Shown here one piece after another: positions 3,416 through 33,186 of a stretch of DNA of 64,000 nucleotides (positions within the stretch are counted from its first letter, which is position 1; the number at the start of each line of letters is the position of its first letter). The DNA is from Paratractidigestivibacter faecalis (lineage in GTDB: Bacteria > Actinomycetota > Coriobacteriia > Coriobacteriales > Atopobiaceae), in contig NZ_QSNG01000001.1 of NCBI RefSeq assembly GCF_003416765.1, positions 1,080,742 through 1,144,741 of the forward strand, written 5' to 3'. Position numbers and translations under genes: made by a program. Below the pieces are notes generated by a model that saw only the letters and a list, made by a program, of their open reading frames with translations, did no database searches and was not told where the DNA came from.

Positions 3416-3778
3416 ATGAAGTTCTTGGGAACCTGGCTCGTCGACGCCATTGCCTGCGCCTTTGCCATCTGGATGGTGCCCGGCATCACCGCCATAGGGG
3501 GAGACTGGGCCGCCCCCATCTTCTGCGCCCTGGCGCTTTCCTTGCTCAACGCCACCGTGCGGCCGCTGCTGCAGGTGCTCTCCCTCCCCATCACGGTCAT
3601 CAGCCTGGGCATCTTCCATCTGGTGGTCAACGCCGTGGTGCTCGAGATGGCAAGCGCGCTCTCGCGCAACGTCTTCCACGCGGGCATTGCCATCGAGTCC
3701 TTTGGCGCCGCCTTCCTGGGTGCCATCGTGATCTCCGTGGTCAGCATGCTCGTCGGCGGAATCGTGGGCGCCGACTAG
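3416..3778 (+). CDS. Phage-holin-4-superfamily membrane protein
   Basis: 120-residue hydrophobic protein with about four membrane-spanning segments (residues 5-25, 30-55, 58-80, 95-118). It contains the family signature of a TM helix followed by LSLLNATVRPLLQVLSLPITVISLGIF, typical of PF04020 (Phage_holin_4_2), small chromosomal membrane proteins of unknown role. GGAGGA lies 6-7 nt before the ATG. It is divergent from the TrpR-like gene. Despite the family name there is no phage context here, so a lytic role should not be assumed. Confidence 0.8.
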   Translation: MKFLGTWLVDAIACAFAIWMVPGITAIGGDWAAPIFCALALSLLNATVRPLLQVLSLPITVISLGIFHLVVNAVVLEMASALSRNVFHAGIAIESFGAAFLGAIVISVVSMLVGGIVGAD

Positions 3779-3780
3779 GC

Positions 3781-3869
3781 CAGACGCTGGGGCCGTCGTT
3801 AGCTTCTGGCAGGGGGCGTCCTCGCCCCCGCAAATTGGGGACGTGTTCGTTTTTGCGCAAATTTGAAAC
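3781..3869 (+). repeat. REP-like repeat, left half, interrupted by IS
   Basis: 3781-3830 is a degenerate copy of the B-type repeat (GGGGnCGTnGTTAGC...GGGnGTC) and 3831-3865 is a good A-type copy (CAAATTGGGGACGTGTTCG, then TTTTTGCGCAAATTTG). The matching right A arm resumes at 5309 after the IS element. The intact composite at 21436-21637 shows the uninterrupted arrangement. Confidence 0.75.
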
Positions 3870-5308
3870 GGGGGTGCGGACGAAAAGTTGGACGCCGACA
3901 GGCGTCCGGATTGGAGCCCGCAATGTACTCGAGCGACGAGAGGGACGCCATCCTGGGGCTCTGGCGCGAGTCCGGCCGGCCGGCCCACAGGTTCGCCAGG
4001 GAGTCGGGGCTCGCCTCCGCCGAGTCGATCAGGCGCTGGGCGTCCGGCGACCTGGGCGTCGGCTGGCACGCCCCCTATACTCTTGCCCAGAGGGCCGACG
4101 CCGCGCGCAGGGCGCTCGCCGGGGAGGACCCCGCCGAGGTCGCCGCGTCGATCGGCTGCCACCCGGAGACCGTGCGCGGCTGGGCCCGCGCCGCGGGGAG
4201 GGAGGGCGAGGTGTCGCTCGCGAACGGACGGGGCGCCCCGCGCGTGCCGCCGCCGGCCGACCCCGGGGACCTGGAGGCCCTCAGGGCCGAGAACCGGGCC
4301 CTGAGGCTGGAGCTCGCCAGGGCCGAGGCGGTGTTGGACGTCCTAAAAGGAGGCGGCCCGGGGCGGGGCCCGGACTCGCTGACGGCGGCGGAGAGGGCGC
4401 TGGTCGCCGACGCCCTTAGGCCCGGGTTCGGCCTGGAGGACGCCCTGCGCGCGGCCGGCGTGGCGCGCAGCACCTACTACTACCACCGCGCCCGCAGGGG
4501 CGCCCCCGACCGCCTGGCCGCCCTGAGGGCGCGGGTGCGCGCCCTGTTCGAGGCCGGGGGCGGGGCCTGGGGCTACCGCACGATATGGGCGAGGCTGCGC
4601 CTGGACCCCGACGAGCCCCTGGCGGTCTCCGAGAAGGTCGTGAGGCGCGTCATGCGCGAGGAGGGGCTCGAGGTGCGCTACCTGAGGCGCCGCAGGCGCT
4701 GGAGCAGCTATGCCGGCGAGGTCTCCGAGGCCCCTCCCAACCTGCCGCTGCGCCCCGACGGCACCCACGACTTCTCCGCCTCGCGCCCCAACGAGCTGTG
4801 GGTCACCGACGTCACCATGTTCACGATAGGGTCGGGGCGCTGCTGGCTGTCGCCGGTGGTCGACTGCTTCGACGGGGCGGTCGTGGCGTGGACCCTGTCG
4901 GAGTCCCCCGACGCCCGCATGGCCGACTCGATGCTGGAGGCGGCGGCCTCGACGCTCGCGGCCGGCGAGCGGCCCGTGGTCCACACCGACCGCGGCTGCC
5001 ACTACAGGTGGCCGGGCTGGGCGGCGATATGCGAGCGCCACGGCCTGGTGCGCAGCATGTCGAGGAAGGGCCGCAGCCCCGACAACGCCGCGGCCGAGGG
5101 CTTCTTCGGCCGGCTCAAGCAGGAGTTCTACCACGGCAGGGACTGGTCCGGGGTGGGCTTCGAGGAGTTCCGGCGGCGCCTGGCGGGCTACCTCGCCTAC
5201 TACAACTCGGGCAGGATCAAGCGGAGCCTGGGGTGGAGGAGCCCGGAGCAGTACCGCAGGGACCTGGGGTACTCTCTCCGTAGTGTCTAAGAAATTGTCC
5301 GCACCCCC
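3870..5308 (+). mobile_element. IS3-family insertion sequence with 3-bp target duplication
   Basis: 1,439-bp element. Its ends are the inverted repeats GGGGGTGCGGAC (3870-3881) and GTCCGCACCCCC (5297-5308). The flanks carry a 3-bp direct repeat AAC (3867-3869 and 5309-5311). Joining the flanks restores a continuous A-type REP-like repeat that matches the copy around 21544-21580 almost base for base, so target and boundaries are well supported. It carries one transposase gene with an intact DDE triad. Confidence 0.9.
3923..5290 (+). CDS. IS3-family transposase, single fused ORF
   Basis: 455-residue DDE transposase. The N-terminal half has two helix-turn-helix-like segments (ERDAILGLWRESGRPAHRFARES; DPAEVAASIGCHPETVRGWAR) and a coiled leucine-rich stretch. 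The C-terminal half is the rve integrase core: WVTDVTMF (first D), VVHTDRGCHY (second D) and SPDNAAAEGFFGRLKQEF (E). IS3 elements usually split these halves into orfA and orfB joined by -1 frameshifting; here they are one continuous frame. The frame opens at 3863, upstream of the IS end, so ATG 3923 is preferred; GGAG precedes it by 7 nt and it lies inside the element. It appears intact, so it may be active. Confidence 0.92.
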   Translation: MYSSDERDAILGLWRESGRPAHRFARESGLASAESIRRWASGDLGVGWHAPYTLAQRADAARRALAGEDPAEVAASIGCHPETVRGWARAAGREGEVSLANGRGAPRVPPPADPGDLEALRAENRALRLELARAEAVLDVLKGGGPGRGPDSLTAAERALVADALRPGFGLEDALRAAGVARSTYYYHRARRGAPDRLAALRARVRALFEAGGGAWGYRTIWARLRLDPDEPLAVSEKVVRRVMREEGLEVRYLRRRRRWSSYAGEVSEAPPNLPLRPDGTHDFSASRPNELWVTDVTMFTIGSGRCWLSPVVDCFDGAVVAWTLSESPDARMADSMLEAAASTLAAGERPVVHTDRGCHYRWPGWAAICERHGLVRSMSRKGRSPDNAAAEGFFGRLKQEFYHGRDWSGVGFEEFRRRLAGYLAYYNSGRIKRSLGWRSPEQYRRDLGYSLRSV

Positions 5309-7129: not shown

Positions 7130-8012
7130 TGAGACCAGCTCCCCTCATGGCCGCGTAGAGGCGCTCGCGATTGGCGTCGGCCATGGGCCACAGCGGCTTT
7201 CTGTAGTTCTCCTCGAGCAGGCCCATCTTGGCCAGGGCGGCCTTGACCGGGATGGGGTTGACCTCGCAGAAGAGGGAGTGGATGAGTTCGAGGCTGTCGA
7301 TCTGAGCGCGGCGGGCGGCCTCCACGTCGCCGGCCAGGAAGGACGCACACATGTCGTGGACGGTCCTGGGCGCGACATCGGCCCAGACGGAGATGACGCC
7401 CACGGCGCCCAGGCTCATGAGCGGCACCACCATGTCGTCGTTGCCGCTCATCATGTGGAAGTCGTCCGAGAGGCAGTGGGCGATGTCGGCGGCGTAGGAG
7501 ATGCTGCCGGAGGCCTCCTTGATGCCCCAGGCGTTGGGGTGGCGCGAGAGGCGCTCCACGTTGGCCGGGCTGATGGAGCAGCCGGTGCGGCCGGGGATGT
7601 TGTAGAGGATGCACGGCACGTTGACGGCGTCCATGACGTCGGCCAGGTGGTGGTAGATGCCCTCCTCGTTGGACTTGTTGTAGTACGGGCTGATGACGAG
7701 AAGGCCGTCCACGCCGAGCTTCTGGAGCTCCAGGCTCTTGCGCAGGGACTCGCCCGTACAGTTGGAGCCGGAGCCGCCGATGACGGGCACGCGGCCGGCC
7801 ACGCGCTGTACGACGCACTCGGCGACGGCCAGGTCCTCGGCGTCGGTCATGGTGGCGGACTCGCCCGTGGTGCCCAGGACCAGGATGCCGTCGGTGCCGT
7901 TGGCCAGATGGAAGTCAACGAGGCCCTCGAGGCGCTCGAAGTCGACGCTGCCGTCCTTCTTGAACGGCGTGACCAGCGCGACGACCGATCCGGTGAGGTT
8001 TGTCATGTCCAT
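7122..8012 (-). CDS. dapA: 4-hydroxy-tetrahydrodipicolinate synthase
   Basis: 296 residues. It condenses pyruvate with aspartate semialdehyde. The TIM-barrel signatures are all present: GTTGES near residue 45, the catalytic Tyr in VISPYYNK, YNIPGRTG and the Schiff-base Lys in WGIKEASG. The open frame extends to 8291, but the upstream part overlaps lysA in another frame and looks non-coding. ATG 8012 has AGGGGAG 6 nt upstream; a second ATG two codons in is possible. Second gene of the operon, 71 bp after lysA. Confidence 0.95.
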   Translation of the reverse strand: MDMTNLTGSVVALVTPFKKDGSVDFERLEGLVDFHLANGTDGILVLGTTGESATMTDAEDLAVAECVVQRVAGRVPVIGGSGSNCTGESLRKSLELQKLGVDGLLVISPYYNKSNEEGIYHHLADVMDAVNVPCILYNIPGRTGCSISPANVERLSRHPNAWGIKEASGSISYAADIAHCLSDDFHMMSGNDDMVVPLMSLGAVGVISVWADVAPRTVHDMCASFLAGDVEAARRAQIDSLELIHSLFCEVNPIPVKAALAKMGLLEENYRKPLWPMADANRERLYAAMRGAGLID

Positions 8013-8083: not shown

Positions 8084-9361
8084 TCATTTGTGGGCAAGCG
8101 CCGAGAAGCGCTCGTCGGTGTCGAAGGTGGCAAAGTAGTCGGCCTGGGTCTCGGCGCGGCGGATCTGCCGCACGGAGCCGTCCTCGCGCAGGAGCAGCTC
8201 GGCCGAGCGGAGGCTGCCGTTGTAGTTGTAGCCCATGCTGAATCCGTGGGCGCCCGTGTCGTGAATGAACAGCAGGTCGCCGATGCCGCACTCCGGCAGC
8301 ATGCGGTCGCGGGCAAACTGGTCGTTGTTCTCGCAGAGGCGGCCCACCACGTTGTAGGCGTGGCAGGCGGGCTCGTCCTCCTTGCCCATGACGCTCACGT
8401 GGTGGTAGGCGTCGTAGATGGCCGGGCGCATGAGGTTGGCCGCGCAGGCGTCCACGCCCAGGTAGTCGTGGTAGGTCACCTTGTGGTGGATGACGCGGGT
8501 CACAAGGCCGCCCGCCGGGGCAAGCATCCAGCGACCGAGCTCTGCGGCAAGGCGAACGTCTCCCATGCCCGCCGGCACCAGCACCTCCTCGAAGGCCCGG
8601 CGCACGCCCTCGCCGATGGCGGAGATGTCCGCGGCGCGGTCCTCGGGCCGGTAGTCAACGCCGATGCCGCCGGAGAGGTCGATGAGCCACACGTGGACGC
8701 CGAGTTCCTCGTGCAGACGCACGGCCAGCTCGAAGAGCGTGCGGGCCAGGCGCGGGTAGTAGTCGTCCACCTGCGTGTTGCTGGCGAGAAACGCATGGAT
8801 GCCGAAGTCCTCCACCCCCAGGGCGGCAAGCCTGCGGAAGGCCTCCTCAAGCTGCGGGACGGTCATGCCGAACTTGGCGTCCTCGGGGTTTCCGATGATG
8901 CCGCTTGCCGCCTCGAAGGTGCCGCCGGGGTTGACGCGGCAGCACACGCGGGAGGGCACCCGGCCGCCCAGAGCGCGCTCGAGGCACCCCACCATGTCGA
9001 GGCTGTCCAGGTTGATGATGGCGCCCATGGCGTCTGCCTGGGCAAAGTCCGCGTCGGGCGTGTCGTTGCTCGAGAGCATGACGCGCTCGCCGGTCACGCC
9101 CGCAGCCCGGGCGAGTGTGAGCTCGGTGGCCGTGGCGCAGTCGCAGCCGCAGCCCTCCTCGGCCAGGATGGAGACAATCCAGGGGTTGGGCGTGGCCTTG
9201 ACGGCAAAGTACTCGCAGAAGCCCGGGTTCCAGGCAAACGCGGCGTTGAGCGCCCGCGCCCGCTGGCGGATCTGGGCCTCGTCGTAGATGTGGAACGGCG
9301 TGGGGTGCTCGGCGCAGACGGCCTCGAGCTGCTCCTTGCCAATGAACGGGCGCTTCTCCAT
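8084..9361 (-). CDS. lysA: Diaminopimelate decarboxylase
   Basis: 425 residues, a PLP-dependent fold-III decarboxylase making lysine from meso-diaminopimelate. The PLP Lys lies in YFAVKATPN (residues about 51-59), the Gly-rich phosphate-binding loop in IDLSGGIGVDY, and the family CEN motif in GRLCENNDQ. It appears as the first gene of the operon, right behind a lysine riboswitch, so the end product would control the whole pathway. The start is ATG 9361 with AAGGAG 8 nt upstream. The sequence is closer to the long decarboxylases of anaerobic Actinobacteria and Clostridia than to the E. coli type by general impression only. Confidence 0.93.
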   Translation of the reverse strand: MEKRPFIGKEQLEAVCAEHPTPFHIYDEAQIRQRARALNAAFAWNPGFCEYFAVKATPNPWIVSILAEEGCGCDCATATELTLARAAGVTGERVMLSSNDTPDADFAQADAMGAIINLDSLDMVGCLERALGGRVPSRVCCRVNPGGTFEAASGIIGNPEDAKFGMTVPQLEEAFRRLAALGVEDFGIHAFLASNTQVDDYYPRLARTLFELAVRLHEELGVHVWLIDLSGGIGVDYRPEDRAADISAIGEGVRRAFEEVLVPAGMGDVRLAAELGRWMLAPAGGLVTRVIHHKVTYHDYLGVDACAANLMRPAIYDAYHHVSVMGKEDEPACHAYNVVGRLCENNDQFARDRMLPECGIGDLLFIHDTGAHGFSMGYNYNGSLRSAELLLREDGSVRQIRRAETQADYFATFDTDERFSALAHK

Positions 9362-10943: not shown

Positions 10944-11855
10944 CTACGCCGCAAGGGACTGTCTCCGGAACTCCTCCGGGGTCAGTCCCTTCAGTTTAAC
11001 CTGGCGCCTCCTCGTGTTCCAATGGACCACGAAGTCGTCGAGGTCCGCCTTGAAGGACTCGAAGTCCGGCCACGTCCTTCCACGGAAGAACTCGTCCTTG
11101 ATGTGGCCGAACACCTGCTCCGTCGCGCCGTTGTCGATGCAGTTGCCCTTCCGGGACATGCTCTGCACCACGCCGGCCTCCTCCAACCGCCTGCACCAAC
11201 CGGCCTGCTGGTACTGCCAGCCCATGTCCGAGTGCAGGATCGGCCTGGAGCCCTTGGGCTTCTTGGACACGAGCTGGTCGAGCAGCTCGTGCTGCTGAGC
11301 CATGTTGGGGTGCAGCGACGTGGACCAGGCGACGATCTCCTTGCTGCCGAAGTCGTAGACCGGCGCGAAGTAGGCCTTGCCCCAGGGCTGCTTGAACTCG
11401 GTGACGTCGGTGCCCATCTTTTCCCACGGCCCGTCGGCGGCGAAGTCCCTGCCGATGACGTTCTCGAAGGTCTTTCCGACCTTGCCCCTGTACGAGTTGT
11501 ACCTGTGGTAGTCGGTCTCGCGGCGGATCCCGCAGCTGATGCCCATCTCGCGCATCATCTTCAGCGTCGTCTTGTAGGCTATGCGCACGCCCTGCTCGGC
11601 GCGCAGGCACATGGCGATCTGCCTGTGGCCGCACCCGTTGGCGGTGCGCGAGAATATCTCGGCGGCGGCCTCCCAGAGCTCGGGCCTGGTGGGAGCCTTC
11701 GGGTGCGACAGCGCGTAGTAGTAGCTGGACCGGGCCATGCCGGCGCACTCCAGCAGGCGCCCCAGCCCGTGCCCCTCTTCGCGCAGGACCCTCACGGCCT
11801 CGACCTTCGCCCTGGTCAGAGCCCGTCCCTCTCGACCAGGGCACGCAATTTTTTT
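10944..11855 (-). CDS. IS3-family transposase OrfB (made by -1 frameshift from OrfA)
   Basis: Integrase-core half of the transposase. Catalytic residues lie in MGTDVTEF (D), ILHSDMGWQYQ (D) and CIDNGATEQVFGHIKDEFF (E), and the HTH_21-like segment is GLGRLLECAGMARSSYYYALSHP. The frame has no good start of its own. It joins OrfA at the A-AAA-AAA heptamer (complement of 11849-11855), where a -1 slip turns ...YLKKL into ...YLKKIACPG. The transframe product would be about 454 residues, almost the same size as the fused transposase at 3923. No inactivating mutation is seen. Confidence 0.9.
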   Translation of the reverse strand, partial: KKIACPGREGRALTRAKVEAVRVLREEGHGLGRLLECAGMARSSYYYALSHPKAPTRPELWEAAAEIFSRTANGCGHRQIAMCLRAEQGVRIAYKTTLKMMREMGISCGIRRETDYHRYNSYRGKVGKTFENVIGRDFAADGPWEKMGTDVTEFKQPWGKAYFAPVYDFGSKEIVAWSTSLHPNMAQQHELLDQLVSKKPKGSRPILHSDMGWQYQQAGWCRRLEEAGVVQSMSRKGNCIDNGATEQVFGHIKDEFFRGRTWPDFESFKADLDDFVVHWNTRRRQVKLKGLTPEEFRRQSLAA

Positions 11856-24913: not shown

Positions 24914-24966
24914 AAAGGCCCTTCTTGCTTCCCGGCATGGCGGGCAAGAAGCAAGAAGGGCCTTTT
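24914..24966. terminator. Strong bidirectional terminator
   Basis: A perfect 17-bp inverted repeat (24914-24930 with 24949-24965; arm AAAGGCCCTTCTTGCTT) with a CCCG/CGGG loop and T/A runs on both sides. It separates the 25-32 kb island from the flavoprotein gene. The remainder of the gap 24773-25094 holds no gene. Confidence 0.85.
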
Positions 24967-25073
24967 GCCGTACAAGAGTATCCTCGCGGCGACGCACGCG
25001 TTCATTGGTCGCGCGACCAGAATCCGCCGTGCGTCGGGCGGTCGTCCTTGGCATCCGCCACAGCCGGCCAAAT

Positions 25074-25101
25074 CAGAAAGGCTGAAAATGCAGGTTACTT
25101 G
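25074..25101 (+). repeat. Left 28-bp direct repeat bounding the island
   Basis: CAGAAAGGCTGAAAATGCAG then GTTACTTG. It matches 32092-32119 at 26 of 28 positions. Each copy covers the stop codon (TAA, minus strand) of the gene that ends there. Confidence 0.75.
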
Positions 25102-25847
25102 AGCAGGCCCGCCGACGCCATGGTCTGTTGACACCCGTTAAGGTAGGCTCTGCATGCAGCCTCATCGCTCACAAATGCATCAAAGTCAGAGGCTTCGCCG
25201 AAGGGGATGTTCTCGCCATCCTCGCCGGGCACGGCTCCCCTGATTCTGACCCGCTCCGGATGCTCCAGGACGTCGAGCGCAACATGTGCATAGGCGCTGT
25301 GCACCTGGACGTAGCGAGGCTCGCTCGCCTCGGGAAGATCGCGCTTCTTGTTGAGAAACAAAAGGTATGCCTGTCCCTCGCGCAACGGCGCCGCACCGCG
25401 TATGTTGGGGCCAAGCCCTGCCGGCCGCACCCTTCGCTCAGAAGTGAACTGACCCTTGCCGGAGTAGTTATACGGCTCCTCTATGGCCAGGTTATCGTAT
25501 GTGTCGATGACGTCTCCCGGCTCGACGCCTTCGCCCCTCAGAACCTCGGTCACCTCAAGCTCGCGCAAAAAAGACTGGTATATGTACACTCCCCGGCCCC
25601 GGCACACCGCCACAGCGACGACCCCCGCCGAATCGAGGGCTTCGGAGTTATCGGCGTACGCCAGCATCTCCGCAGGCTGCGAGAAAACGGCGAAGGGAAG
25701 CGCATCCAGCTTGGTTCGGTCGCGGTTGTAATCGGTGAAGCTCTTGCGGGTGGCAAACCCGAAGACGGTACAGACGCCAAGCATGAGGATAACCAGGCAC
25801 GCAGTCGCCCTCAAGGACAGCTCGGGGAGCTTTCGCAGGGCAACCAT
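25095..25847 (-). CDS. Membrane-anchored exported protein of the ABC cluster
   Basis: 250 residues with a single N-terminal membrane anchor (LSLRATACLVILMLGVCTVFGFA, residues about 11-33, no clear cleavage site), the rest predicted outside the membrane. It contains no recognised motif; the middle (LEVTEVLRGEGVEPGDVIDTYD) resembles short beta-rich domains with a dockerin-like or tpr-free fold, which I cannot name. It is coupled to the ABC ATPase gene (overlap TGATG), so it is probably an accessory or immunity component. ATG 25847 has GGAGG 5 nt upstream. Confidence 0.65.
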   Translation of the reverse strand: MVALRKLPELSLRATACLVILMLGVCTVFGFATRKSFTDYNRDRTKLDALPFAVFSQPAEMLAYADNSEALDSAGVVAVAVCRGRGVYIYQSFLRELEVTEVLRGEGVEPGDVIDTYDNLAIEEPYNYSGKGQFTSERRVRPAGLGPNIRGAAPLREGQAYLLFLNKKRDLPEASEPRYVQVHSAYAHVALDVLEHPERVRIRGAVPGEDGENIPFGEASDFDAFVSDEAACRAYLNGCQQTMASAGLLK

Positions 25848-26491
25848 CACTGCCTCCCGTCTGCTATGCGCCCCTCATACAGGCGATAGGTCCTATCGAA
25901 CAAGGCTTCAACCTGAGGCTCGTTGTGACAAGACACAAGAACGGTGCAGCCCCTCGCGCGCTCCTCCAAGATCAGCCTCGCAACCATGCCGATACCGTCC
26001 ACATCCAGCGCATTCGTCGGCTCATCAAGGATGAGAAGCTCCGGCCTCTCCATCACCGCCTGCGCAATCGAGAGGCGCTGTCGCATTCCCATGCTAAAAG
26101 CAGACACCTTTCGGGCGTCGTCGGGGTCGAGCCCCACGCGCCTCAGCGCATCACGGGCCGCAGGCTCCCCCACCTCGCCGCGTATCGAGGCAAGAAAGGT
26201 CATGTTCCAAAGGGCCGATTGATCTTCCCAAAAGCCTGTCGAGTCGAGCGAAAGGCCTAGACCGGGTGGGAAGTCGCAATCCTCGCCGATGCGTTTCCCA
26301 AAGACGTTGACCGTTCCGGAACTAAGGTGAATCAACCCCGCGACGGCTCGAAAGAGCATGGTCTTTCCGGACCCGTTGATTCCCATAAAGCCGTAAACGC
26401 CGCCTCGCGGCAGCTCAAGCGAGATGCCATCGAGCACCGCGCGGTCCTTGATGACCTTTGTTGCGTTTTCGATCCTGATGACGTCCGTCAT
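25847..26491 (-). CDS. ABC transporter ATP-binding protein
   Basis: 214 residues. Walker A is GINGSGKTML (about 37-46), the signature is AFSMGMRQRLSIAQAV, Walker B is ELLILDEPTNALD, with a switch His in VSCHNEP. It resembles ATPases of bacteriocin or lipoprotein-type exporters with separate permease genes. The frame opens at 26779, but homology starts at ATG 26491 with GGGGGTG upstream. It energises the three membrane proteins encoded just upstream in the operon. Confidence 0.92.
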   Translation of the reverse strand: MTDVIRIENATKVIKDRAVLDGISLELPRGGVYGFMGINGSGKTMLFRAVAGLIHLSSGTVNVFGKRIGEDCDFPPGLGLSLDSTGFWEDQSALWNMTFLASIRGEVGEPAARDALRRVGLDPDDARKVSAFSMGMRQRLSIAQAVMERPELLILDEPTNALDVDGIGMVARLILEERARGCTVLVSCHNEPQVEALFDRTYRLYEGRIADGRQ

Positions 26492-26501
26492 AAGACACCC
26501 C

Positions 26502-27221
26502 CTACAGAAGCTCCTTTGAGGCAAGGGCCCCGGATGCGAGCCCGCAAGCAACCAAGAGCAGCAGCAGCAAATAGACGATGGACCTGGCGGGCAAGAAGCC
26601 CAAGGCGTCGTGCCACGCGAGCACCGCCTGAGCCGAAGGCGCGAGCGGCACGAGCACGGCCTGCCACTTGGCGGGAGAGACCGCGAGGGCGCACAGAGTC
26701 GCAAAGTGCACGCCCAGGACCGCGACGGACGCCTCGACTTCCCCCAACCGCAAGGCCGCCGCGCTTGCCACCACAGCAAGAAGCGCTTGCTGAAGGGCGA
26801 GAAGCACCACCGAGGCCAGGAGCCCCGGAAAACCGGACACTTCCTCGCCGCCGACCAGAAGCAAGGCCCCCAGACCAGCGCCGTAGCCGAGCAGTGCCGA
26901 GAAACCTCCGCGCAAAGCAGCGCCGGCGCACGCCCTTCTTGCCCAACTCATGCGCGAGCCGATCCGAATGGCGGTAAGCCTCGCGCGAGAACAATCCTCC
27001 ACGAGCTGATCGGAAAAGGCAAAGGTGCACACCGATGGCAGAATCATCGCCGTCATCATGGTGAACACATGTGGGGATGCGCCAGCCCTCGGAACAAGCG
27101 CGCCTCCTGCGATGAGATAGCGAGCCGCCTTATCCGCACCACCAGCGGCCATGGCGAGCATCAGCACCGCAGAGACCAGAGTGATCAGGGCACACTTTAC
27201 GGCAAGGGACCTACAAGACAT
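26502..27221 (-). CDS. ABC permease-like membrane protein A
   Basis: 239 residues with about six membrane helices, rich in Ala and Leu. It has no recognised domain beyond the ABC-2 style membrane layout. ATG 27221 overlaps the end of permease B by 11 bp. The ATPase gene follows by 10 bp. Very likely a transporter subunit, but the family is not certain (DUF2705-like ABC permeases are one candidate). Confidence 0.7.
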   Translation of the reverse strand: MSCRSLAVKCALITLVSAVLMLAMAAGGADKAARYLIAGGALVPRAGASPHVFTMMTAMILPSVCTFAFSDQLVEDCSRARLTAIRIGSRMSWARRACAGAALRGGFSALLGYGAGLGALLLVGGEEVSGFPGLLASVVLLALQQALLAVVASAAALRLGEVEASVAVLGVHFATLCALAVSPAKWQAVLVPLAPSAQAVLAWHDALGFLPARSIVYLLLLLLVACGLASGALASKELL

Positions 27222-27954
27222 CAGCGCCACCGCCCATCGAGGGCAAATCTCTTCTCGAAGCAACGCGCGCTGAGGCGAACGCGAGAATCAAGGCGATGGC
27301 CAGCAGACGCAGAGCGTTGCAGACCATAACCGATACGGGCATGGTCGCCTCAAGAAGCGTCAGCCTCCAACCGAGGTACAAAGCGGGGTGGTCTAGAGCC
27401 GGAGAAAAGCTGGCAAGGTAGTCGAGCGAGCCGTAGAACGCCACTGAGCAGATTGCCATCGGCAAAGAAGCGCAGGTTAGCCAGGTAAAGAGCATGACGA
27501 GCTGGCAACTTGTGCAGAAGAGAGCGATCAAAACGGCCTCGACTATAAGGAACGAAACCGCCGCCTTAGTGCTAAATGTCCAGAAGCCCCTGGCAGCAAC
27601 CAGCAAAAGACCGCTCGCCACCACAGTCAGTGCAAAAACCGCCGAACGCACCACGTAGACCTTGAGGCACATAGCAACGCTCGCGGCTCCGCTGCCGGCG
27701 CGGATCAGTATTTGCGGAGAGGAGCTCATTTGCAGATTCGATATCCCCAGTATGATCACGAGCGGAACGAGCGCAAAGACGGCAAGGTTCGAGCTGGTAA
27801 CAACGAAGAACAACTTTGGCAAGTTGCCAACCGCCGCCGAGAACGTGCCCGTCTCGATGAAAGCGAATTCGACGCCCCTGAGCATGACGCCCAGGGCGCA
27901 CGCTATGGCGCAGCTTCTGTCGAGAGCGCTTCTTCGCACAGGCCCGGCGCTCAT
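27211..27954 (-). CDS. ABC permease-like membrane protein B
   Basis: 247 residues with about six membrane helices and a short cytosolic N terminus (MSAGPVRRSALDRSC). The frame extends upstream to 28227, but that part lies over permease C in another frame. ATG 27954 overlaps the permease C stop (ATGA). The sequence is unlike A and C apart from overall topology, so the exporter may be built from three different membrane subunits. Confidence 0.7.
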   Translation of the reverse strand: MSAGPVRRSALDRSCAIACALGVMLRGVEFAFIETGTFSAAVGNLPKLFFVVTSSNLAVFALVPLVIILGISNLQMSSSPQILIRAGSGAASVAMCLKVYVVRSAVFALTVVASGLLLVAARGFWTFSTKAAVSFLIVEAVLIALFCTSCQLVMLFTWLTCASLPMAICSVAFYGSLDYLASFSPALDHPALYLGWRLTLLEATMPVSVMVCNALRLLAIALILAFASARVASRRDLPSMGGGADVL

Positions 27955-28808
27955 AGGAGAACATCCCGCTTGGTCAGCAAGGCGGCGGCGATCGCGGCAA
28001 CCGCGAAGAACAGCGCAAAAGCCGGGAGCGCAATAAACCAAAACAGCGTTGCGCCACCACCCCAAACAAAGGAAAGCCCAAGGTAGGTGGCCATGACGTT
28101 CACTTCGCTCGGCAAGAAGTTCGAGGACACCAAAAGCAGGAGCGTCGGCAAGCCAAGAACGAGGATGCGGCTCCGCTTCGAGTACAGCGAGATCGTCACC
28201 GAAACGAGGGCGGCGATTCCGGACCAAAGCGCCTCGTAAAAGGCGATCAAAAGATTGAAGGCATAGCGATTGTTCGCAGCGAGCGAGGCGAGCAGGTCCA
28301 CGCCCGCGGCGGGAGCCACCGCGGCCTCGTATGACGCGGGAGTGTTGAACTCGGCAAAGGAGTCCTGCCCGGCGACGAGGGGGAAAGCGGCAAGGGTCAT
28401 AAGCTGCGAGATCACGAGGGCCAGGAAGGTCAGAAGGAACGCGAAGGCGAAAGCGATCGCAGCTATGGAGGCAACATAGGCACGCAAGGAAGCCCTGCTT
28501 ACGATCGCATTGGCCTGCTTTTGCCTCACGTCAAGGTAAAGCCGGTCGGCAAAGGCGGCGCTGGAGCACGGAATCATGAGGAAATACACGAACAGCCCGA
28601 ACACAGGCGTCTGCATGGCACCATGGTTCCCAACCCATGCGTATGCGGCCGAGGGAAGCTCCGCGACGTCGTGGCCCCAAAAGCCAAGACAGGTCTGGAT
28701 GAAAGCCAAAGACAAGACCGCAACAAAGATGAGAAGCGCATATCGCCAGTTTTTTGAGCGGAAGGCTCGATGGGACTGAGCCTTGAGCATACCTTTGCCA
28801 GCATCCAT
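27951..28808 (-). CDS. ABC permease-like membrane protein C
   Basis: 285 residues with about six membrane helices and an external domain between helices 1 and 2 or 3 and 4 (EFNTPASYEAAVAPAAG). GGGGAGG lies 5 nt before ATG 28808. It follows the secreted-protein gene and begins the run of permeases. ABC-2 style. Confidence 0.7.
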   Translation of the reverse strand: MDAGKGMLKAQSHRAFRSKNWRYALLIFVAVLSLAFIQTCLGFWGHDVAELPSAAYAWVGNHGAMQTPVFGLFVYFLMIPCSSAAFADRLYLDVRQKQANAIVSRASLRAYVASIAAIAFAFAFLLTFLALVISQLMTLAAFPLVAGQDSFAEFNTPASYEAAVAPAAGVDLLASLAANNRYAFNLLIAFYEALWSGIAALVSVTISLYSKRSRILVLGLPTLLLLVSSNFLPSEVNVMATYLGLSFVWGGGATLFWFIALPAFALFFAVAAIAAALLTKRDVLL

Positions 28809-28857
28809 ACGACCTCCCCTGGATATGCGGCCGGGAGGAACCCCGGCCGCCATTCGG

Positions 28858-29250
28858 TTAATTGTTAAAGTTCACACTACCGGTTACATAATCTGTCCCA
28901 GAGCCATAACCGTATTGATGACCATGGAGAACAACAGTGCCCGAAGTCCCGCTGTTGTGATAAGAAGAGCCCTTGCTCTGATTCACATGGACGTCAACGG
29001 AATAAGAGCACTGATTTCCATCCTTGGTAATCCAGAAATTACCACCGTTCTTTGAGCTGGAACTAACAGAGATCAGGGCTGTGCCCGATCCACTGTGTTT
29101 GGTTCCGCTCACGATGGAGACGTCCTCCCACCAAGGACCAAGTGTAATGTTGGTAAAAGACGCTGCAAAAACCGGTGCTGCAAAGCCAAATGTCAGCGCC
29201 GCCAGCAGAGCCAAAGTTGCCACCTTCTTCTTGGTTTTCTCAAACTTCAT
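28858..29250 (-). CDS. Secreted small protein 1 with signal peptide (DUF2712/bacteriocin-like)
   Basis: 130 residues. Sec signal peptide: KFEKTKKKVATLALLAALTF, then GFAAPVFAA with an AxA-type cleavage near residue 31-33. The mature part of about 98 residues is rich in Ser, Gly, Thr and Asn, with one Cys, and looks all-beta (SGSGTALISVSSSSKNGGNF; YGSGTDYVTGSVNFNN). That style resembles DUF2712 or lactococcin-972-like secreted proteins, which travel with dedicated ABC transporters, but no definite match is claimed. ATG 29250 with AGGAG is preferred to 29331. The permease and ATPase genes follow. Confidence 0.75.
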   Translation of the reverse strand: MKFEKTKKKVATLALLAALTFGFAAPVFAASFTNITLGPWWEDVSIVSGTKHSGSGTALISVSSSSKNGGNFWITKDGNQCSYSVDVHVNQSKGSSYHNSGTSGTVVLHGHQYGYGSGTDYVTGSVNFNN

Positions 29251-29327
29251 CGGTACTCTCCTTTCCATCCCCACCTCATTTGCAAACTCGCCAACCCTTC
29301 GCTTAATAAATTGATAAATTACTCCTT

Positions 29328-29798
29328 TCACCAGCTGTACATTGCGACGGTTGGTGCCGTAATCAACGAACCAAGATTGCTGCGAAATTCAAACATGTAC
29401 TGACCAGATCCGACATTGCTCCATGTTGCCTTCGTGAACCCATTGCTTTTAAGGGAGGCGGACCCTATCCGAATGGTTGATGTATCCGAAACTCTTAAGA
29501 GAGTCACCGTGAAGAAACCGGTCTTAGCGCAACTAGATGTAAGTTCAAGACCGACATTCGAGCCATCAAATGAATAAGGCCCGAATCTTTCATATGAGTT
29601 CAAAGTCAGGGGTTCCCCAAACCAAGAGCAGGATGCAACTCCAGAGTTTGAGTCGTCATACGTTACCGAAACCTTATAATCGCGCTCTGTCGCCAACGCC
29701 TTAATTGGGAACATAAACGCCAATAGAGCTACGGCCGCAATCAACCAACCCGGTAATAGACACTTTCTCGAGGTGCCAGCGCATGAATCCATCACCAC
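29328..29798 (-). CDS. Secreted small protein 2 with signal peptide
   Basis: 156 residues. N-terminal hydrophobic segment LPGWLIAAVALLAFMFPIKALA with a likely cleavage after ALA (about residue 36), then a 120-residue beta-rich, Ser-rich domain with two Cys (ASCSWFG; TSSCAKTG) that could form a disulfide. GTG 29798 is 6 nt after AGGAG. It precedes secreted protein 1 by 77 bp; base composition is clearly lower in GC than the flanks. No family recognised; a partner of, or target for, the ABC system is likely. Confidence 0.65.
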   Translation of the reverse strand: MVMDSCAGTSRKCLLPGWLIAAVALLAFMFPIKALATERDYKVSVTYDDSNSGVASCSWFGEPLTLNSYERFGPYSFDGSNVGLELTSSCAKTGFFTVTLLRVSDTSTIRIGSASLKSNGFTKATWSNVGSGQYMFEFRSNLGSLITAPTVAMYSW

Positions 29799-29893
29799 AT
29801 CACGCTCCTATCCAATTCGCCATCGGGTGGTAGAACCGATTCTGGCAAAGAAAGGTTGCGATGTCTGTCACTCAACGCTATGCAATTAATGAA

Positions 29894-31882
29894 TCAGCTT
29901 GTAAAGCCCGCCTCATCCTTAAGTAGTTTCCGCAGCTCACCGATGCTGTTGAGACCGAGCTTCTCAAAAGCCCTCGTCCGGTATGAGTAAACCGTTGCAG
30001 GCGTTGTGGTGTTCTTCTTGCAAACAGACGCAAGGTCCTCCCCACTAGCAAGGTTGATCAGAATGTCAGCCTGAAGCTGGCCGAGCCCTCGGCCCATGAG
30101 ATAATGCCTCGCCTGCTCGATGCCCTTTGGAGCCACTTTAATGCGGCGCCACCCCAGCCTTCGCCACAAGCAGATGATTAGAACCACTATGGCAGCGGGA
30201 TACACATAGGCAATGGGATTTGAAAGCGCCCCAATATGGTAGTAATCAAACCATTCCGATATATATAGGGCTGCCGCGAGAAAGAAGAGGTTCTCCGGCC
30301 CCATCCCGACAAGCCTTCGAACACCAAGGACAAACGCGGTAAGAAGTCGTCTGGAGCATCCGGCAGACCCGTCGATTTCAAGCTTCTCGGCGCCCAAACA
30401 AAGAAATACGAGTACCAGCAAGAGCAATATCTTTAGACGGTAAGCAAGATACTGATTGAGGTCTAATCCGATACCAGTCCATACCGGGGAAGAAGACCAC
30501 GCAAAGTAGGAACCCACCGAAAAGAGCAGGTAATGTGCAAGCGTCATTGCCGCCTCGCGCGCCGTAAGTTTTCTGATCGAGTCGACGGCCTCTTTCGACC
30601 CGGCGTAAACCTCGGACCATGCAACGCCCATCAGAACAAGAAGAGCCGCAAAGGCAAGCAGGCCAAAGCGGCATATTCCCCCAATGGACCCATAGTCACC
30701 TTTGCTGTGGTTATAGATGATATCCGGCCAGACCATAAATATGACTGCGAGCATCAATATGACGAAGGCCGCCATCCCCGCGACGGAAGGCTCATTCGTT
30801 TGTTTTTCCTTCTCACCAGATTCGTTAGCGGCAACCGGCCTCCTTTTGCTGTCACGAGCATACTGCCGCAGCTCGGAAGCTCCAGAAAACCCCAGTTTTT
30901 CATAGCCGCGCCGACGGTACGAGGCAACCGTAGCCTCGGCAATTCCCAGGCAGTCCGCTATGGTGGCAGCCGAATGGCCCAGCGCCGTTTTACACATGAC
31001 GCTGAGCTCCCTCTGGGTTAGGGGCGAGCTGGCGGCTTTACCTAGCAAATTCGCAACTTCATCTTCTTCGTTGGCTGCCGGTAAGCTGTCGATAGACGCC
31101 GCCGGCGTCGTTTTTGCGCGCCATTTGGTCATGCCCTTTAGCACCGCCTCGAAAAGAGATGCGCACAGCAGCACAACTGCCAAATAACCAAAAACCATCG
31201 CCGGCGGGTAATACGTCTCGAATATCATGTTCGACCATAGACTCATCAGAAACTCAAGGAATAAAGAGAACATCAGATGCCCTGCGACAAGGTACATGGC
31301 CGTTCTTCCCGGGAGCGCGCCGGCTCTGAAGCTGTGCCGCCCCCAAAGCACGACTGCAACGGCCACAAAAATGGACAGCAGCACAGAGCGCACCAAGCTT
31401 GCGGCGCACAACGAAAGAGCAGCCAGCAAAACCGCCGAAGGCCAGGCGCAGCCCAAGAAATATGATCGCGACGCCGCAAAACGCGGAGGCCTTCCCTGCG
31501 CGGCCACTTTTTTATCGAGATAGAGGCACCAACCGAACGTACCGATTATGCGGCAGAAAACCTCAAGGTTATCGATAAGCTCGACCAGACCCCAAGGGAG
31601 ATCGACCGATTCAACCGTTGCGTTTATAACGGCGACGAGGCCAAGCGGAACGAGCATGAGGGTCATGGTTCGTGCTGCCAGAAAGAACCAGTCGAATGCC
31701 TTGGGAAATACGCGCAGGATTCGCGGCTCAAGCCAATCTCCCAGCCAGTGCCAGGCGATTAACAGCGCCAAAACAGTCGCGTGAACAATAGCCCCGCAAA
31801 GTCCCGGGGCAACGGGATCTCCCACGATAAAGGGCCCATACGGCGTCGCAGCAAGCAGCGCTGTCCAAAGAACCCAAGACAT
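29894..31882 (-). CDS. Membrane regulator with two tandem TM-LuxR units
   Basis: 662 residues. Unit 1: about seven membrane helices (residues 1-245), then a LuxR-type helix-turn-helix LTQRELSVMCKTALGHSAAT...YRRRGYEKLGF (about 285-345). Unit 2: about six membrane helices (370-585), then a second LuxR helix-turn-helix (LGQLQADILINLASGEDLAS...YRTRAFEKLGL, 600-655). Coriobacteria have many membrane-LuxR proteins with one C-terminal HTH; two in tandem is unusual. It heads the island and reads in the same direction as the secreted-protein and ABC genes, so it is the likely local regulator. Confidence 0.8.
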   Translation of the reverse strand: MSWVLWTALLAATPYGPFIVGDPVAPGLCGAIVHATVLALLIAWHWLGDWLEPRILRVFPKAFDWFFLAARTMTLMLVPLGLVAVINATVESVDLPWGLVELIDNLEVFCRIIGTFGWCLYLDKKVAAQGRPPRFAASRSYFLGCAWPSAVLLAALSLCAASLVRSVLLSIFVAVAVVLWGRHSFRAGALPGRTAMYLVAGHLMFSLFLEFLMSLWSNMIFETYYPPAMVFGYLAVVLLCASLFEAVLKGMTKWRAKTTPAASIDSLPAANEEDEVANLLGKAASSPLTQRELSVMCKTALGHSAATIADCLGIAEATVASYRRRGYEKLGFSGASELRQYARDSKRRPVAANESGEKEKQTNEPSVAGMAAFVILMLAVIFMVWPDIIYNHSKGDYGSIGGICRFGLLAFAALLVLMGVAWSEVYAGSKEAVDSIRKLTAREAAMTLAHYLLFSVGSYFAWSSSPVWTGIGLDLNQYLAYRLKILLLLVLVFLCLGAEKLEIDGSAGCSRRLLTAFVLGVRRLVGMGPENLFFLAAALYISEWFDYYHIGALSNPIAYVYPAAIVVLIICLWRRLGWRRIKVAPKGIEQARHYLMGRGLGQLQADILINLASGEDLASVCKKNTTTPATVYSYRTRAFEKLGLNSIGELRKLLKDEAGFTS

Positions 31883-32012
31883 TGCTCCTCCAAAGGCAAA
31901 GAACCACCCGCGTGATTTCCCGTATATCCAATTTACTTAAACAATCCCAGACGGCCGCGCTGTCTCAATGAGCGGTTGCCATATCAGGCTTAGACGGCAG
32001 ATGGCTCATTAA

Positions 32013-32062
32013 CGGTAGCGCCCGCTCGTCTCAGCATAAGCCGAGGCGAGCGGGCGCTACCG
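32013..32062. terminator. Long hairpin between electron-transfer operon and island
   Basis: CGGTAGCGCCCGCTCG (32013-32028) and CGAGCGGGCGCTACCG (32047-32062) are perfect 16-bp inverses. It lies 51 bp after the stop of the NuoF-like gene. A weaker AATGAGC/GCTCATT pair lies just before it. Confidence 0.7.
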
Positions 32063-32091
32063 ATCCGGACAGGCAAAAAACGCTGCCGAAC

Positions 32092-32119
32092 CAGACAGGC
32101 TGAAAACGCAGGTTACTTG
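32092..32119 (+). repeat. Right 28-bp direct repeat bounding the island
   Basis: CAGACAGGCTGAAAACGCAG then GTTACTTG. Partner of 25074-25101, 26/28 identical, 7,018 bp away. It covers the final codon and TAA stop of the NuoF-like gene. Confidence 0.75.
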
Positions 32120-33186
32120 CGCTTGAAGGGAATGGGCTTGGGCGGGCACTTGGGCTTGACGGCGCCGGCGGTCACGATGGCACCGTACTCGCAGGAGCCC
32201 AGGCAGGCGCCGCACTGGGCGCAGGCCTTCTGGTCGATGACGTGGATGAAGCGCGGACGGCCCAGGATGGCGTCCTCCTCGCAGGAGTCCACGCAGGCGT
32301 TGCATGCCTGGCACTTGCTGGCCAGGATGTGGTAGGTGAGAAACGCCTTGCACTCCCCCGCCGGGCAGGTCTTCTTGCCGATGTGGGCAGAGATCTCGGC
32401 CTCGAAGAGGTCGAGGAAGGCCATGACGGTCCTGGCCATGACGCGGCCCTGCTCGCAGAGGCACTGGCTCTGCATGACGGGGCAGAGGTCGCGCAGAAGC
32501 GCCAGGTCGGAGGGCTTGCCCTTCTTGCGGCAGACGTCCGCCACGATGGTGGCGATCTGGTGGCTTCCCTCGTGGCCGAAGACGCAGCGGCCGCAGGTCT
32601 CGTGGCGGTAGAGCTGGCAGATCTCGTTCAGCGCGTTGGCCATGCAGTTCTTGGCCGTGTAGACGCGCACGTAGTCGCTGGCGAGCTCGACCGTGGCCTC
32701 GGCGTCGGCGGCGGAGGTCAGCGTGCCGGCGGGATAGCCGACGTAGACGGCCTTGGGCTCCTCGGCGCCGGCGGCGGCTGCGAGCTCGGCCACCGTGGCG
32801 GTGGCGCCCAGGCAGACGGGCTCGGAGGCACCCTCGAGCCAGACACAGCGGCTGCCCTCGTCCGCCAGCAGGGCGCTGCCCTCGATGACGGAGTCGGCGC
32901 CCTCGCCGTTGGCGCAGGACGGGATGGGCTTCTCGCCGGAGAGCACCTTGGCGGCGGCAGACGGGTTGGCGTAGACGAAGCCGAGCTCGGGGTTGCACTC
33001 CACCACGCGGACGGAGTCGCCCAGCGCGTCGGCGAGACGTGCGGCAAGTTCGTGGCCGGCCGGGACGAGCACGGCCTTGGCGCCGGAGTCGGCGATTCTT
33101 GAGACGGAGGCGTCAAAGTCCCTGGCCAGGAGCCAGAGCGCGACGGGGGCCTGCCTGTGGGCAGGCATGAGGTTGACGACGGTCAT
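32113..33186 (-). CDS. NuoF-like iron-sulfur protein with two ferredoxin clusters, no FMN domain
   Basis: 357 residues. The middle (about 190-280) matches the iron-sulfur end of NADH dehydrogenase subunit NuoF: HETCGRCVFGHEGSHQIATI, then CPVMQSQCLC. The usual CxxCxxC is CGRCVFG, so the third Cys is lost. The C terminus has two [4Fe-4S] ferredoxin motifs (CQACNACVDSC, CAQCGACLGSC). The N-terminal 180 residues lack the NuoF FMN/NADH Rossmann glycines. It probably takes electrons from the flavoprotein encoded 17 bp upstream. ATG 33186 has AAAGGAG upstream. Confidence 0.75.
   Translation of the reverse strand: MTVVNLMPAHRQAPVALWLLARDFDASVSRIADSGAKAVLVPAGHELAARLADALGDSVRVVECNPELGFVYANPSAAAKVLSGEKPIPSCANGEGADSVIEGSALLADEGSRCVWLEGASEPVCLGATATVAELAAAAGAEEPKAVYVGYPAGTLTSAADAEATVELASDYVRVYTAKNCMANALNEICQLYRHETCGRCVFGHEGSHQIATIVADVCRKKGKPSDLALLRDLCPVMQSQCLCEQGRVMARTVMAFLDLFEAEISAHIGKKTCPAGECKAFLTYHILASKCQACNACVDSCEEDAILGRPRFIHVIDQKACAQCGACLGSCEYGAIVTAGAVKPKCPPKPIPFKRK

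Follow-up and report, generated by a model that had tools for sequence, protein, structure and literature searches.

A candidate bacteriocin and immunity cassette of Coriobacteriia, with a LanFEG-like transporter and a predicted NTR-domain anchor, at gene 3′ ends

The window considered here is the whole 64,000-nucleotide stretch of the Paratractidigestivibacter faecalis genome, within which a block of about 7 kb of minus-strand genes is bounded by two copies of one 38-bp direct repeat. The block encodes eight proteins: (i) a membrane regulator (29894..31882), (ii) two secreted proteins, sec2 (29328..29798) and sec1 (28858..29250), (iii) three permeases of an ABC system, namely permease 1 (27951..28808; 285 aa), permease 2 (27211..27954; 247 aa), and permease 3 (26502..27224; 240 aa), (iv) an ABC ATPase (25847..26494), and (v) a membrane-anchored protein (25095..25850). 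This gene content is as the initial annotation described it and, as was also reported there, no integrase is present among the eight proteins. Neither sec1, sec2, the three permeases, nor the anchored protein matches a Pfam or NCBIfam family above cut-off, and the PADLOC defence families give no match.

The left repeat copy (25067-25104) holds the TAA stop of the anchored-protein gene, while the right copy (32085-32122) holds that of an Fe-S gene on the minus strand (32113..33186), the 3′ end of which is the presumed insertion site; neither copy is assigned a strand. The copies are identical at 33 of 38 positions and share a core of 26 of 28 at 25074-25101 and 32092-32119, in agreement with the repeat first described and with its overlap with both stop codons. 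The product of the Fe-S gene had been called NuoF-like, which holds for its NuoF C-terminal-type 4Fe-4S region (Pfam PF10589) and its ferredoxin clusters (Fer4), but the 357-aa protein consists of only these. When up to three mismatches are allowed, the repeat has two matches in the window against none expected from shuffles. It has just two across the whole 2.1-Mb genome and is absent from 139 other genomes of the family, which rules out a common genomic element. Alignment of the left and right flanks scores 28, compared with a best score of 18 among 30 shuffles. The GC content is 0.48-0.63 within the block versus 0.64-0.71 in the nearest flanks, consistent with the lower GC noted earlier, and both repeat copies sit exactly at these composition borders. 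Two inverted repeats lie close to the borders. One, with 23-bp arms that are 91% complementary, lies in the gap that separates the regulator gene from the right repeat (32013..32062, no strand assigned). The other, a perfect 18-bp repeat with a 16-bp loop, lies between the left repeat and an FMN-reductase gene (24914-24965) and is probably a two-way terminator.

The regulator has a TM-HTH-TM-HTH architecture with two LuxR-type HTH domains (GerE match), and the same layout of two TM blocks and two HTH domains is found in all eight regulators tested, i.e., the window protein and seven homologues. It is akin to the Coriobacteriia LuxR regulators DadR, HcdR, and CadR, which are 10-12-TM proteins that are likewise membrane-embedded, carry a LuxR HTH, and are encoded next to the genes they probably control (PMC9734109). 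These regulators have one N-terminal TM domain and one HTH, whereas in the cassette regulator a single chain contains this TM-plus-HTH unit twice; the available part of that source does not describe such an arrangement for the Eggerthella 12-TM LuxR proteins (PMC9734109).

Both secreted proteins carry signals for Sec-dependent export. The 130-aa sec1, which is the proposed bacteriocin, starts with a signal peptide that, as read from the sequence, comprises a K/R start, a hydrophobic stretch, and a terminal AxA site, and its mature part, predicted to start near ASFTNITLG, is predicted to be an all-beta sandwich. The structural models are predictions from six and nine sequences; that of sec1 has a mean pLDDT of 67, with values mostly of 70-86 in the mature part, and among the matches listed its fold resembles generic beta-sandwiches only (PirA, GOLD, CBM, Ena). 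No bacteriocin family in Pfam or NCBIfam matches sec1, and the lactococcin 972 profile matches none of the eight sec1 members (Pfam E<=1, NCBIfam E<=10). The Lcn972 structure is not among the fold matches listed, which is not evidence against kinship. The second protein, sec2, has a Sec-type signal peptide and a C-terminus ending in a conserved MYSW, as recognized from its sequence and from homologues in KH3B4, RUG11916, G153, OH1046, and G246.

The ATPase is nearest to the LanF-type (lantibiotic-protection) subfamily, TIGR03740 being its best NCBIfam match with an E value of 5.9e-38 and 130.8 bits, far below the curated cut-off of 309.75. LanF proteins have a glutamate in place of the Q-loop glutamine (E-loop). 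The corresponding position in the cassette ATPases is Glu in 20 of 27 proteins and Asp in three, including that of the window, and Gln in none of the 27. The anchored protein consists of an N-terminal TM helix and an extracellular domain with a predicted NTR (TIMP/netrin-like) fold (AlphaFold2, pLDDT 80.6). All 50 structural matches listed for this model are NTR domains (agrin, TIMP, meteorin, PCOLCE1, and complement C3-C5), the best of them with a Z of 9.0 over 117 residues and an rmsd of 4.1, and Pfam NtA matches weakly in three of 18 members. The predicted OB-type NTR fold is shared with NTR/TIMP domains, from which the cassette anchor differs in being bacterial, TM-anchored, and encoded beside an ABC transporter, and in having no significant sequence relationship to them.

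The block is one copy of a conserved Coriobacteriia cassette and not a one-off. The system, of a kind that the initial annotation could not name, can now be described as a recurrent cassette of this class with a LanFEG/Cpr-like transporter and an NTR anchor. Profile and BLAST searches return a conserved order in most loci: regulator, sec2 and sec1 (each of them optional), permeases 1-3, ATPase, and anchored protein. About 29 of 396 genomes of the class are strong carriers by the permease-1 profile, and the sec1 profile adds one further genome, which belongs to the same taxonomic order, among 396 sampled from the phylum; these locus counts rest on sampled genomes, one per species. Carriers include Coriobacteriales OH1046, Atopobium UBA2090, Olsenella KH3B4, Collinsella An2, and three uncultured genomes, and the distribution among relatives is patchy. 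The repeat being common elsewhere in the genome, or the block being held in fixed synteny by related strains, had been named as grounds for doubting an insertion; the repeat is unique to its two sites in the genome, and fixed synteny does not hold for the block. Some distant cassettes (L119 5080-7208, L120 5700-7279, L115 3046-3993) are adjoined, before or after, by short genes that include a small HTH gene, and possibly represent a variant of the system.

The window genome harbors three further copies, at 0.95, 0.97, and 1.66 Mb. In a tree of permease 1 and the ATPase, the window copy clusters with OH1046 inside a clade that has a support of 88, the genome's own copy L016 groups with KH3B4, RUG11916, and G153 (support 100), and its copies L017 and L018 belong to a third clade (support 95). 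This spread of the genome's own copies over different clades points to several acquisitions. Relatives of permease 1 were found neither on plasmids nor on viral contigs, and none of sec1 was found on phages.

In Olsenella KH3B4, the cassette sits between arcA and arcB, and a 36-bp stretch that makes up the 3′ end of arcA, including its stop codon, is present at both cassette ends. The same insertion occurs in RUG11916, where it is split over two contigs and the repeat is identical at both ends. The empty site, in which arcA is directly followed by arcB with a single 36-bp copy, is found in five congeners (G159, G160, G158, G050, and G162). KH3B4 and RUG11916 are ~99.8% identical over the cassette, ~98-100% over ~0.75 kb on the arcA side, and ~97-100% over 2 kb on the arcB side, beyond which identity drops to 80-90%. 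In view of this high flank identity, spread by ordinary homologous recombination in the flanks is most likely after the first insertion. The arcA and Fe-S gene insertions have unrelated repeat sequences of similar length (36 versus 38 bp). The cassette has similar borders in both and points the same way with respect to the gene upstream.

Insertion at the 3′ end of a gene, whose end is rebuilt in the process, as first proposed for this block, is supported by the unique window repeat and by the arcA/arcB insertion with its five empty congeners, and for the window block itself the support is strong by analogy. The Fe-S gene 3′ end would have been the point of entry of the cassette, through the same process as at arcA/arcB, and the stop codon with which the anchored-protein gene now ends would come from the duplicated Fe-S gene end. 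The anchored protein ends in SAGLLK in the window and in SAGL in its OH1046 homologue, such that the last codon and stop of the window gene seem to derive from the duplicated end. The empty counterpart of the window site was not found in the only congener (G001), which has no strong match to either flanking gene.

Duplication is seen at only the two insertion sites, arcA and the Fe-S gene. Cassette copies in three genera (L016, L019, and L107) occupy the pckA-pta intergenic spot, where no flanking repeats were found; this intergenic region varies in length among the congeners of G153. The long repeats around the paralogue L018 were rejected as insertion repeats because they belong to a small dispersed set with eight genome matches (core GGATTGCGGGGTTTGGCAGG), clustered around the L018 cassette (3700-4750 and 11390-11590). 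The long intergenic repeats at L119 and L123 resemble them and were likewise not counted.

The state of sec1 varies considerably among the ~30 loci: 11 genes are intact, three have an in-frame stop, one is truncated (the window genome's own L017), one runs off a contig end, and 14 were not found. The stops are TAG in G031 and G059 and TAA in G097. They lie a few codons apart and shortly past the signal peptide (L019/OH1046 8556-8945, L025/G059 7274-7669, L022/G097 8234-8638), and the remaining frame is open and conserved past the stop. Beyond its stop, the OH1046 protein still has 76% identity to the window sec1, which indicates that the stop is either recent or read through. Recoding was considered and rejected, as two TAG and one TAA codons occur at different aligned positions, and the stop-bearing genes are likeliest to be broken. 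Where sec1 is broken or missing, the ATPase and NTR genes stay open frames, and mostly so does permease 1, which is interrupted by a stop in two copies from among the more distant ones.

Two known groups of systems invite comparison. The cassette is like LanFEG/CprABC, including NsrFE1E2G of Streptococcus mutans, in its putatively LanF-like ATPase with an acidic residue at the Q-loop position, its separate small permeases, its extra membrane-anchored extracellular protein, and its bacteriocin-like operon location (PMC5786555). LanFEG/CprABC systems combine two 6-TM permeases with one ATPase, and the three membrane genes of NsrFE1E2G include NsrE1/E2 as split halves (PMC5786555), whereas the window cassette has three full-size permeases (240-285 aa). 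The cassette also lacks a two-component system and lanthipeptide genes, and has an NTR-domain anchor instead of the LanI lipoprotein. With the lactococcin 972-like bacteriocins (Lcn972, streptococcin B; PMC11796350, PMC4055356), it shares an unmodified, Sec-secreted small protein of the beta-sandwich type (predicted for sec1), ABC genes directly downstream, and the occurrence of loci with a non-functional peptide. The pneumococcal scb locus, which encodes a Sec-secreted beta-sandwich bacteriocin of this kind, is without a functional peptide in some strains, a parallel to the cassettes that lack an intact sec1 (PMC11796350). In contrast to this family, sec1 shows no sequence match, has about 100 mature residues, and is often accompanied by a second secreted protein, and the three-gene lactococcin 972 operon (bacteriocin, membrane protein, and ATPase) differs from the three permeases, ATPase, and NTR anchor of the cassette. 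The cassette thus resembles both LanFEG/Cpr and lactococcin 972 loci, yet falls outside each by their defining tests.

The persistence of the transport genes, the Sec signals, and the LanF-like ATPase together favor a bacteriocin with its immunity, and transport genes that outlast sec1 fit immunity better than dedicated export of sec1. By a modest margin over even chances, the block is a copy of a mobile, bacteriocin/immunity-like Coriobacteriia cassette that enters at gene ends and combines Sec-secreted sec1 and sec2, LanFEG/Cpr-like immunity, and a regulator. The membrane regulator would sense a signal and switch the operon on; sec1, and sec2 where present, would be exported through the Sec pathway, adopt small beta-sandwich folds, and act extracellularly against competitors, probably at the envelope. 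The ATPase and three permeases may work like LanFEG/Cpr by moving the protein or related peptides off the producer membrane. LanI-type proteins bind lantibiotics at the cell surface, and the anchored NTR domain could bind the secreted protein there.

As for how the cassette moves, a substantial though smaller share of the probability goes to the decay of an integrative or mobilisable element, with loss of the integrase once the element had inserted at a gene end, a history that is compatible with a bacteriocin cargo. Tyrosine-recombinase elements typically leave direct repeats at gene 3′ ends, which speaks for such an origin; no recombinase or integrase occurs among the cassette proteins or inside either repeat-flanked insertion, and two independent insertions with unrelated repeats, nearly the same borders, and no integrase remnants in either argue against it. 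A bolder form of the bacteriocin/immunity reading is more tentative still: a recombinase-free cassette whose repeated insertions at gene 3′ ends each duplicate ~36-38 bp of the target, and which carries a new class of Sec-secreted beta-sandwich bacteriocin along with a three-permease LanFEG-like pump and NTR immunity.

It is rather unlikely that the cassette is a resistance module, in which the pump and NTR anchor guard against the antimicrobial peptides of others and sec1 and sec2 serve as secreted decoys or signals. The many copies without sec1 fit this role, as do the Cpr-type relatives of LanFEG, which serve resistance alone (PMC5786555), but sec1 adjoins permease 1 wherever it is present and is conserved even where the permease 1 sequences have diverged considerably. 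The surface-protein system that the initial annotation placed beside a bacteriocin, with the ABC transporter exporting or positioning sec1 and sec2 as adhesins or surface-layer parts, is less probable again. Although adhesins and carbohydrate-binding modules commonly have beta-sandwich folds and the NTR fold is one that binds proteins, the signal peptides of both secreted proteins are of the ordinary Sec type, neither protein has a recognised anchor, and many loci retain the transporter although no secreted gene is recognised in them. Because transport genes survive where the secreted gene is broken or missing, a bacteriocin is the better explanation of the two. Least probable is a window repeat that has no connection with insertion, for instance shared 3′-end sequence or a product of gene conversion. 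In favor of this, the copies are just 87% identical and no empty counterpart of the window site was found; against it, the genome has no copies beyond these two, which coincide exactly with the composition borders, and KH3B4 shows the same layout to have arisen as an insertion.

For gut, mouth, and rumen Coriobacteriia, descriptions of antagonism systems seem to be few, and a literature search found no paper devoted to them. The candidate bacteriocin/immunity cassette, carried by about 29 of the 396 sampled genomes, is common, compact, and self-contained enough for direct testing. It is also a clean example of how cargo can be inserted at gene ends with no enzyme in sight, and natural empty and occupied sites exist for study. 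In linking a LanFEG-like pump to an NTR domain, the cassette would put the TIMP/netrin fold to an unexpected use in bacteria. The cassette appears to move between gut Coriobacteriia and to carry a secreted, protein-antibiotic-like weapon, from which the pump and surface anchor probably shield the producer.
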